DNA of 64,000 nt from Eubacterium sp. (GTDB lineage: Bacteria > Bacillota > Clostridia > Oscillospirales > Acutalibacteraceae). The stretch lies in assembly GCA_017450645.1 (NCBI GenBank), contig JAFSTE010000031.1, positions 1 through 64,000 of the forward strand, read 5' to 3'. A program made the position numbers and the translations under genes. Of the stretch, positions 32,867 to 64,000 are shown one piece after another. Positions within the stretch are counted from its first letter, which is position 1, and each line of letters starts with the position of its first letter. Below the pieces are notes generated by a model. That model was not told the DNA's origin and did no database searches. It was given only the letters and a program-made list of their open reading frames with translations.

Positions 32867-33090
32867 TAAAAAAAGCCCCCGTCTTGCGACAGAGGCAGTA
32901 AAACTGCGGTTCCACTCCGTTTTATACTCGGTGCCTTTAACGGAGCAATCCGTCGTAAAATACTAAACTTCCTTTACGAAACTCGCGGGTGCATTTCGCT
33001 ATGCGTGATATACAGACTTTTCAGCGCCGCCTGCTCTCTTTGATATCCGTTTAAAGCTACTTCTCCCGTTCGAAGTCTTTAATTATCTAT
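32867..33090 (-). promoter_or_regulatory. T-box leader (tRNA-Cys) of cysE-cysS
   Basis: On the minus strand the T-box core AGTGGAACCGCA lies at 32916-32905. The terminator GCCTCTGTC ... GACGGGGGC with T-run lies at 32897-32869. Upstream is an AGAGAGCAGG element and a Stem I with GAAATGCACC, whose UGC (32993-32991) is the likely Cys specifier. Uncharged tRNA-Cys should favour antitermination. Confidence 0.9.
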
Positions 33091-62672: not shown

Positions 62673-62748
62673 AGGGGTATAGCTCAGTTGGTAGAGCAGC
62701 GGTCTCCAAAACCGCGTGCCGAGGGTTCAAGTCCTTCTGCCCCTGCCA
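62673..62748 (+). tRNA. tRNA-Trp, anticodon CCA
   Basis: 76 bases with encoded CCA. Acceptor AGGGGTA/TGCCCCT, D-arm AGCTCAGTTGGTAGAGC, anticodon loop CTCCAAA (CCA), T-arm GGGTTCAAGTCC. Confidence 0.96.
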
Positions 62749-62754
62749 AGGGAA

Positions 62755-62787
62755 AACAAGATTACCGTAAGGTAATCTTGTTTTTGC
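62755..62787 (+). terminator. tRNA-Trp terminator
   Basis: CAAGATTACC/GGTAATCTTG with GTAA loop and TTTTTG. Confidence 0.88.
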
Positions 62788-62874: not shown

Positions 62875-62903
62875 TTGAATTAATCTATAATTTGTGTTAT
62901 ATT
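62875..62903 (+). promoter_or_regulatory. Promoter of the hydrogenase-maturation operon
   Basis: TTGAAT at 62875, 17-base spacer, TATATT at 62898. Confidence 0.65.
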
Positions 62904-62908
62904 ATTAT

Positions 62909-62989
62909 CAATCTAACGGAAAGTTAACTAACCGAAAGATGGACGAATACTAACTATCGCCGCATCCTTTGGGTGCGGTAATTTTTTTG
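62909..62989 (+). promoter_or_regulatory. Attenuator-type leader with competing hairpins
   Basis: A terminator (CCGCATCC/GGTGCGG, 62960-62978) with a T-run lies 14 bases before the first start codon. An upstream segment CCGAAAGATG (62932-62941) can pair with CATCCTTTGG (62963-62972), which includes the terminator's 5' arm, at nine of ten positions (one G-U). The two structures exclude each other. No known riboswitch is recognised. Confidence 0.65.
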
Positions 62990-63002: not shown

Positions 63003-63248
63003 ATGAACACAAGAGTTGCAATTATAGGTATTATTGTAGAAAAAAAGGATAGCGTAAACGAGCTGAACAATCTGCTGTCGGAGTACGGCGATTATATTAT
63101 CGGCAGAATGGGTATCCCCTACGATAAGAAAAATGTAAACTGCATTACAGTAGTTCTCGACGCCGAAAACGATATTATTAACACCCTTTGCGGTAAAATC
63201 GGCAAGATTGACGGCGTAACTTCCAAGGCTGCGTTCAGTAATGTATAA
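63003..63248 (+). CDS. TM1266-type iron-only hydrogenase system regulator
   Basis: 81 residues with the ACT-like/NikR C-terminal fold (VAIIGIIVEKKDSVNELNNL, YGDYIIGRMGIPYDKKNV, VNCITVVLDAENDIINTL, LCGKIGKIDGVTSKAAF). TM1266-family proteins occur next to [FeFe]-hydrogenase maturation genes and are thought to regulate them. It overlaps hydE by 8 bases. ATG preceded by AAAGGAAAAG. Confidence 0.9.
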   Translation: MNTRVAIIGIIVEKKDSVNELNNLLSEYGDYIIGRMGIPYDKKNVNCITVVLDAENDIINTLCGKIGKIDGVTSKAAFSNV

Positions 63249-64000
63249 ACAGCTCATTGACAAGCTCGAAAAGCAACACGCACTATCTAAAGACGAATAC
63301 TTAACGCTGATTAAAAACCGGGACAAGTGTCGCGAGTACATCAGCGAGCGCGCTTCGTTTGTAAGAAACAAAGTATACTCTAATAAGGTATTTATACGCG
63401 GGCTAATCGAGATATCCAACTACTGCAAAAACGACTGCTACTACTGCGGAATAAGACGCTCTAACGCTAATGTAAGCCGTTACAGACTCAGCGAGGACGA
63501 GATTATCTCCTGCGCTGACGAGGGGTATAAGCTCGGCTTCAGGACCTTTGTGCTGCAGGGCGGCGAGGACAGCCATTTTACGGACGAGGTTTTATGCAGA
63601 GTAATCAGCGAAATCAAGTCGCGCCATCCCGACTGCGCTGTAACGCTCTCACTCGGAGAACGCTCTTACGAGAGCTACAAGGCGCTTAGAGAAGCGGGCG
63701 CTGACAGATATCTTTTGCGTCACGAAACGGCGGACTGCGAGCATTACGCAAAGCTGCATCCAAAAGAAATGGATTTCTTTACGCGTATTAGATGCATCGA
63801 GGATTTAAAGAGCCTCGGCTATCAGGCAGGCGTCGGTTTTATGGTGGGCTCACCCTACCAGACGCTCGAAAATCTTGCGGACGAGATGCTGTTTTTAATT
63901 CAGACTAAGCCGCAGATGGTCGGCATAGGACCGTTTATTTCGCACAGCGACACACCGTTTAAGGATAAAGAAAGCGGTACTGCGGAGCTTACAACCTTTA
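63241..64000 (+). CDS. hydE: [FeFe]-hydrogenase H-cluster radical SAM maturase HydE, partial
   Basis: 253 codons visible; the gene runs off the window. HydE is a radical-SAM enzyme acting in assembly of the diiron subcluster. The cluster motif is ISNYCKNDCYYCGIRRSN (CxxxCxxC) at about residue 60. LQGGEDSHFTDE, TLSLGERSYE and GFMVGSPYQT match the HydE barrel. The ATG at 63241 overlaps the regulator's end. hydG and hydF are expected just beyond the window. Confidence 0.95.
   Translation, partial: MYKQLIDKLEKQHALSKDEYLTLIKNRDKCREYISERASFVRNKVYSNKVFIRGLIEISNYCKNDCYYCGIRRSNANVSRYRLSEDEIISCADEGYKLGFRTFVLQGGEDSHFTDEVLCRVISEIKSRHPDCAVTLSLGERSYESYKALREAGADRYLLRHETADCEHYAKLHPKEMDFFTRIRCIEDLKSLGYQAGVGFMVGSPYQTLENLADEMLFLIQTKPQMVGIGPFISHSDTPFKDKESGTAELTTF

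Follow-up and report, generated by a model that had tools for sequence, protein, structure and literature searches.

In anaerobic gut and rumen bacteria, [FeFe] hydrogenases are among the main producers of hydrogen; the maturases that serve them synthesise CO, cyanide and an uncommon iron cofactor. Among leader-based controls, PyrR is a protein-dependent transcription attenuator of operons. Other described systems that come close to the locus reported here are the hairpins bound by ANTAR proteins, which according to the accessible part of PMC3369931 require hexanucleotide terminal loops with A1 and G4, and the Moco RNA motif, which the accessible part of PMC5651825 reports upstream of a hydrogenase cluster in Eubacterium limosum. 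The TM1266 family, a member of which heads the operon studied here, is annotated only as a putative regulator; in the portions of the two papers available, TM1266 is named a transcription factor by homology in a data paper (PMC9679718) and the Thermotoga maritima protein (2NZC) is described as a homotetramer (PMC12626770). In the literature searched we found no report of RNA-binding activity of TM1266, no known target of TM1266 / TIGR03959 / PF21699 and no report of RNA-level control of maturase genes. An element like the one below is not described in the open-access literature searched, a scope that leaves outside it a 2017 survey of 224 candidate RNAs. Term searches of the accessible text of PMC6429828, PMC8040213, PMC2864571 and PMC11109978 gave no occurrence, and the accessible text of PMC9431212 mentions neither regulator nor riboswitch nor terminator.

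The locus lies in a stretch of 64,000 nucleotides from Eubacterium sp. (contig JAFSTE010000031.1, positions 1 to 64,000), the whole of which is called the window here. The leader RNA that we describe is a real feature, widespread in its class, and undescribed as far as Rfam 15 and the open-access literature searched reach.

Results

The leader in the window

The original prediction, made from the letters of the window, had placed a promoter, a leader of about 80 bases and a terminator 14 bases before the first start codon ahead of a regulator-hydE operon, and all of these were found (Table 1). The 14 bases run from the terminator U run to the ATG of TM1266. The promoter call rests on a consensus match, and 2 kb holds 9 promoter-like sites as against 4.5 in shuffles; a TATAAT-like box stands at the same distance in many relatives, as read in the upstream regions of genus TM1266 genes. 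After hydE come hydG and hydF, mostly beyond the window, in an apparent operon TM1266-hydE-hydG-hydF. TM1266 is a small protein whose sole Pfam match is its own family, and the only convincing relative with a solved structure is T. maritima TM1266 (2NZC). Residues R4, R35 and K75 are invariant in 22 homologues, and R4 is nearly so in 30. No clear residue difference was seen between the TM1266 proteins of leader-bearing and leader-free loci, the leader-free set including several leaders that the descriptor used below had missed. A tRNA-Trp(CCA) with its own terminator-like hairpin is found at 62673-62785 (+), just upstream of the leader promoter. An ordinary T-box leader lies elsewhere in the window, at 32888-33082 (-), before genes that by eye are serine O-acetyltransferase-like and cysteinyl-tRNA synthetase-like.

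Table 1. Features of the TM1266-hydE leader and operon, in window coordinates
Feature	Coordinates	Strand	Basis or remark
Promoter, sigma-70-like TTGAAT-17-TATATT, TG before -10	62875..62903	+	Consensus match, 9 of 12
Attenuator leader RNA	62910..62988	+	Start inferred from promoter, end = U run
P1 hairpin 5' strand, AUCU-AA-CGG-AA-AG	62911..62923	+	Fold; covariation in relatives
P1 hairpin 3' strand, CU-AA-CCG-AA-AGAU	62928..62940	+	Fold; covariation
Two 2x2 purine loops of P1	62915-62916/62935-62936 and 62920-62921/62930-62931		Fold
Antiterminator 5' strand CCGAAAGAUG, overlaps P1	62932..62941	+	Window evaluation; class-wide pairing test
Antiterminator 3' strand CAUCCUUUGG, within terminator 5' arm and loop	62963..62972	+	Pairing test
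Intrinsic terminator hairpin, 9 pairs	62959..62979	+	U run of seven U at 62982-62988
TM1266-family protein (TIGR03959 / PF21699), proposed trans-acting partner	63003..63248	+	First gene of operon
hydE, runs off window	63241..64000	+

A repeated CGGAAAG / CCGAAAG motif had also been noted. Its copies, CUAACGGAAAG (62913-62923) and CUAACCGAAAG (62928-62938), can now be read more sharply as the two strands of one hairpin, P1, which is the minimum-energy fold of the 5' part of the leader (AUCU-AGAU / AA-AA loop / CGG-CCG / AA-AA loop / AG-CU, closed by the loop UUAA). When the 97-nt stretch was dinucleotide-shuffled 200 times, only 1 shuffle folded equally well or better, the terminator contributing most. 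The predicted 10-base segment able to sequester the terminator arm is the antiterminator strand CCGAAAGAUG, which pairs with CAUCCUUUGG at 9 of 10 positions. When the window transcript is cut at 62972 the antiterminator is in the best fold (-10.9; P1 alone, -5.3), and in the full leader at equilibrium P1 plus terminator reaches -20.1 as against -7.8 with the antiterminator, which is therefore best only until the terminator is complete. Since P1 plus terminator is favoured at equilibrium in the window RNA, the switch must be kinetic and timing matters. The window copy is a weak example of the element, with CUAA for CUGA, AA/AA loops and an antiterminator duplex of -6.6 by the common measure.

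That the leader fits no known riboswitch consensus was borne out, because no Rfam 15 family matched the searched leaders at or above threshold. At the gathering score the window gave 4 matches, none of them to the leader, and looser E-values on 10 genus loci gave only a tRNA. Among 20 divergent loci there were 3 sub-threshold matches, of which two overlap leaders (L10_leader, E 0.054, in L241; rli42, E 0.083, in L235), and 17 hyd loci gave tRNAs and two sub-threshold matches in L416. The 17 class C loci (a variant defined below) gave 7 sub-threshold matches, including L10_leader in 2 of the 17 (E 0.046 and 1) and PyrR in 1 (E 1.3); the L10_leader alignment in these loci rests mainly on A/U-rich stretches and the terminator. 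A T-box leader was rejected, as RF00230 does not match this leader. An ANTAR target was likewise rejected: the A1/G4 hexanucleotide loops are absent, terminal loops vary, and two copies occur in only 8 of 100 fetched loci.

Occurrence upstream of TM1266 genes

In 60 genomes of the same genus we found 29 TM1266 genes, and 26 of the 29 (the window's own included) have the motif upstream, each preceding a terminator-like sequence as read by eye. The 3 loci without it (L023, L024, L029) closely follow an upstream gene. TM1266 genes were further found in 146 of 300 family genomes and in 235 of 391 class genomes. The 185 upstream regions that were compared comprise the 29 from the genus, 28 from the family and 28 from the class returned by searches, and 100 that we chose from match lists (70 class, 30 family). 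By automatic criteria the element stands upstream of TM1266 in 117 of the 185, and conservation of the leader at orthologous operons thus extends from the genus to the family and the class. This number is made up of 106 found by a descriptor or the class C pattern and 11 found by the model R2 among the 100 fetched; it includes at least two likely false positives (L186 and L197, whose genomes, G674 and G707, are treated as leader-less elsewhere) and misses 17 regions judged leader-like by eye.

The descriptor looks for a CUGA-like sequence, a helix of 3-5 bp and RAAG, with a bonus for inner loop and helix. At a score of at least 11 it finds 81 of the 185 regions (shuffles 4.5, reverse strand 2), and at a score of at least 14 it finds 64 (shuffles 0.3 per 185, reverse strand 1). 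The class C variant, which has a larger outer loop (as in CAUGAGGGUUCGUCCCGAAUG..AAGGC), is found in 33 of the 185 regions; shuffles give 1.2 and the reverse strand gives 0. With strict filters and E <= 0.001, a genus model, R1, matched no more than 7 of the 300 family genomes; because R1 was too narrow, R2 was built from 33 diverse leaders. Most of the 100 fetched loci have a single hairpin, and 8 have two tandem copies in one leader (L219, L221, L227, L228, L236, L239, L289, L292). At L188 and L192 (1442-1481, + in both) some 30 bases separate the end of the element from the start of TM1266. Another copy can be made out by eye further upstream and neither locus shows a clear terminator; these are perhaps translational platforms.

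The species-genome collection was also scanned for the DNA pattern without regard to neighbouring genes, both middle positions being allowed to vary. This gave at least 119 stretches with at least 136 expression matches in them, and at least 40 of these have TM1266 or HydE within 2.5 kb downstream. In the 40 listed the nearer of TM1266 and hydE stands 28-265 bases downstream, and the middle pair is complementary (G-C, A-U or C-G) in 39, the exception being L142; several of the 40 are genus-set leaders, and L056 and L144 share one genome. Among the other 96 listed, L048 and L085 are leader-like and those read are mostly identical tandem repeats. The class assignment follows from the named records among the matches listed, which are mostly Clostridia MAGs.

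Covariation of the hairpin

The consensus of the element is CUGA-(3-4 bp)-RA...GA-(3-4 bp)-RAAG, in which two purine 2x2 loops flank a short helix with nearly dyad symmetry. The hairpin covaries. In the alignment A2 the covariation score is 0.637 as against 0.202 in shuffles, of which 0 of 500 reach 0.637, and it is at most 0.148 when the pairing is slid. Seven of the 9 pairs change on both sides, a number that 20 of 500 shuffles also reach, and RNAalifold recovers the same structure unaided from A2. The helix takes forms as different as CACC/GGUG, CGCC/GGCG, UACU/AGUA, UUCA/UGAA and GCGC/GCGC, and around it CU, GA or AA, RA and AG are nearly fixed. Terminal loops differ in length and sequence across leaders and the internal loops are conserved. 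Both strands in A2 mostly read YUGA-N4-RAA, as would be expected of a symmetric binder. Among genus leaders no more than two pairs vary on both sides, and three of these leaders have CAG/CUG in place of CGG/CCG. Some members have broken helix pairs (CGC/CCG in 3 of 26 genus leaders, CAC/CUG in several, and one C.U, in L142).

The 33 R2 leaders were picked by a descriptor that requires complementarity, and thus the percentage of them that is paired is partly built in. An anchor-only test, which uses CTGA and AAAG and selects without regard to pairing, was applied to the 68 of the 185 regions with one candidate, omitting 70 without an anchor pair and 47 with several. In 39 of the 68 the first three helix positions pair, and partner swaps gave a mean of 11.0 and a maximum of 19 in 2000. 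The element thus shows what marks a structured RNA class, namely a covarying helix with conserved unpaired positions.

Terminator and antiterminator

A terminator-like hairpin is present in 103 of 106 leaders before TM1266. The antiterminator is formed by RAAG of the P1 3' strand and the bases that follow, paired with the terminator 5' arm, and it excludes both P1 and the terminator. This pairing is specific to each leader's own terminator: the own duplex averages -9.75 kcal/mol as against -7.50 with swapped partners (sd 0.22, minimum -8.16 of 300). When the conserved RAAG is left out the values are -5.50 and -4.88 (sd 0.16, minimum -5.40), a smaller excess that is still beyond all 300 swaps. 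These leaders therefore have the marks of an attenuator, an intrinsic terminator between promoter and first gene and an upstream strand that co-evolves with the terminator arm. As P1 and the antiterminator share the P1 3' strand, holding P1 should cause termination.

The element away from TM1266 leaders

The element reaches further than the original prediction had it: copies also occur in front of hydG and hydE genes at a distance from TM1266 and, directly after TM1266, in front of hydG, hydE or hydF. The genomes compared are mostly drafts. In 38 leader-bearing whole genomes R2 gave 42 matches in 35 genomes, comprising one TM1266 leader per genome, 2 tandem copies, 2 between hydE and hydG, 2 at transporter genes and 1 probably due to chance, inside an unrelated ORF (G090). 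Another 37 genomes bear TM1266 but have no convincing TM1266 leader; 17 of them have one R2 match each, and all 17 matches are at hyd loci. These stand before hydG (9), hydE (5) and hydF (1), after hydE at a contig end (1) and before a FecCD permease lying about 2 kb upstream of hydE (1), and the neighbour genes of 16 of the 17 were confirmed by NCBIfam profiles. The remaining 20 gave no R2 match at E <= 0.02. Copies before hydG often end in or near the Shine-Dalgarno region (L346, L347, L404, L407, L412, L417, L418), and control there is thus probably translational.

Against these stand 37 genomes that bear hydE and, by protein or Pfam search, have TM1266 in none. They gave 4 matches, of which 2 before hydG are credible and 2 inside other ORFs are taken as chance. 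With kinship not corrected for, Fisher p is 1e-4 for 17/37 against 2/37 and 1.6e-3 against 4/37. The two exceptions that keep the element before hydG without TM1266 (G547 and G369) are drafts 93 and 97% complete from genera, g205 and g156, that also contain TM1266-bearing members; given these sister genomes and the draft status, assembly gaps are possible in both. None of 27 hydE upstream regions from TM1266-less genomes carries the element. In 12 hydE upstream regions from genomes with TM1266 elsewhere the descriptor found none, and one weak R2 match (L394, E 0.1) was not counted.

A leader directly before hydE is found at L144 and L156, and both genomes encode TM1266. In G739, one of these two, a separate leader (L358) with a different helix and the same kind of loops precedes TM1266, which speaks for a factor that acts in trans and recognises the loops. 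From these sequences, TM1266 is the obvious candidate for such a factor.

Element-like stretches were also seen at transporter genes. At L085 (6228-6330, +), in a Lachnospiraceae MAG in which TM1266 too is preceded by a leader (L353), a second leader-like stretch with P1 CCG/CGG and a terminator-like hairpin precedes a NitT/TauT-type ABC permease and ATPase. Its minimum-energy fold lacks P1 and is not exceptional (z -1.1); the copy suggests that a transporter is in the regulon. Other matches are at L413 (1065-1105, +), before a FecCD/BtuC-type permease and then hydE; at L344 (3090-3132, -), where the match covers the start of a Peripla_BP_2 gene some 5.5 kb away from TM1266; and, weakly (E 0.018), at L348 (2267-2306, -), before an SsuA-like operon.

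Discussion

On balance we favour the interpretation that this leader is an attenuator of [FeFe]-hydrogenase maturation genes and represents a new class of cis-regulatory RNA, with TM1266 as its most likely effector. In the absence of effector the nascent RNA would pass through the antiterminator and RNA polymerase would read on; an effector that holds P1 would keep the antiterminator from forming, and transcription would stop. Before some hydG genes the same hairpin probably acts on translation. It would be the TM1266 protein that binds the nearly symmetric RNA, which at its own operon would amount to autoregulation, and this binding may couple maturase expression to some signal of H-cluster supply. 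The original prediction was that a ligand, protein or metal acting on this RNA decides transcription of the regulator-hydE operon. That the decision is made at the RNA is supported by the conservation of the leader, the covariation of the hairpin and the leader-specific antiterminator. As to ligand, protein or metal, co-occurrence across genomes leans, short of proof, towards a protein, TM1266. Against TM1266 as the partner are the 2 exceptions among the 37 TM1266-less genomes and the 20 of 37 TM1266-bearing genomes without a match.

A farther-reaching proposal, which we put forward tentatively as plausible though somewhat short of probable, is that TM1266 would found a new family of RNA-binding regulators. 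The protein would sense the assembly state of the H-cluster (an organometallic intermediate, iron or redox) and bind a dyad-symmetric duplex of two YUGA-N3/4-RAAR strands. Across its bacterial class it would in this way switch the transcription, and at hydG the translation, of the entire maturation pathway and of some transporter genes.

The main rival, which we find possible but rather doubtful, is a riboswitch independent of any protein, in which the purine loops of P1 would bind a small molecule or metal of H-cluster assembly (e.g. Fe2+, a HydG or HydE product, or SAM) and bring about termination or hide a ribosome site, TM1266 merely accompanying the operons. Fixed purine internal loops on a free helix do resemble a ligand pocket, the tandem copies recall some tandem riboswitches, a few copies precede ABC transporter genes, and two TM1266-less genomes have the element before hydG. 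This reading is opposed by the association with TM1266 in 17 of 37 genomes as against 2 (or 4) of 37 and by the lack of the element in all 27 hydE leaders of TM1266-less genomes. The conserved core is also small (about 14 bases) and nearly symmetric, which is unlike most metabolite aptamers. It is improbable that some other conserved RNA-binding protein (ANTAR-, BglG- or PyrR-like) takes the place of TM1266 at the attenuator: tandem small hairpins before a terminator do recall the ANTAR targets in the accessible part of PMC3369931, but here it is the internal loops that are conserved and not A1/G4 hexaloops, and the tie to TM1266 would be left unexplained. That the repeats serve a transcription factor as its DNA operator, with RNA folding incidental, is disfavoured as very improbable. 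In its favour, the genus element can for the most part be read as the direct repeat CTGACSGAAAG, a short way behind the -10 box. Against it, both sides of the helix change with pairing kept, half-site spacing in genus leaders varies from 4 to 20 bases, copies lie inside operons beside Shine-Dalgarno sites, and nearly all leaders (the 103 of 106) have the terminator-like hairpin.

The element offers a concrete short RNA target that makes both the function of TM1266, which marks many maturase operons, and the maturase-supply signal testable.

Comparison with known systems

The protein-dependent transcription attenuators PyrR and, as far as the accessible parts of the sources describe them, L10(L12)4 and TRAP resemble the present system in that antiterminator and terminator exclude each other, an upstream structure stabilised by the effector leads to termination, and autoregulation by an operon product is possible. 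The RNA, however, is different here, a short helix lying between two purine 2x2 loops, the gene set is different and the partner is putative. The dual hairpins bound by ANTAR proteins, in the accessible part of PMC3369931, are alike in being small hairpins, sometimes in tandem, that overlap a terminator and have a symmetric protein partner, which here is proposed; they differ in that their conserved positions are in A1/G4 hexaloops and not in internal loops, and in that the ANTAR hairpin is itself an antiterminator whereas P1 opposes one. The Moco RNA motif, in what is accessible of PMC5651825, shares with this element that it is a structured leader before hydrogenase genes, but it is a known Rfam family, unmatched by the leaders searched, and it precedes hydrogenase complex genes whereas the present element precedes maturases. 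Lastly, TM1266 / TIGR03959 / PF21699 (PDB 2NZC) is the family to which the first gene of the window operon belongs, and the RNA element described here is proposed as its target.
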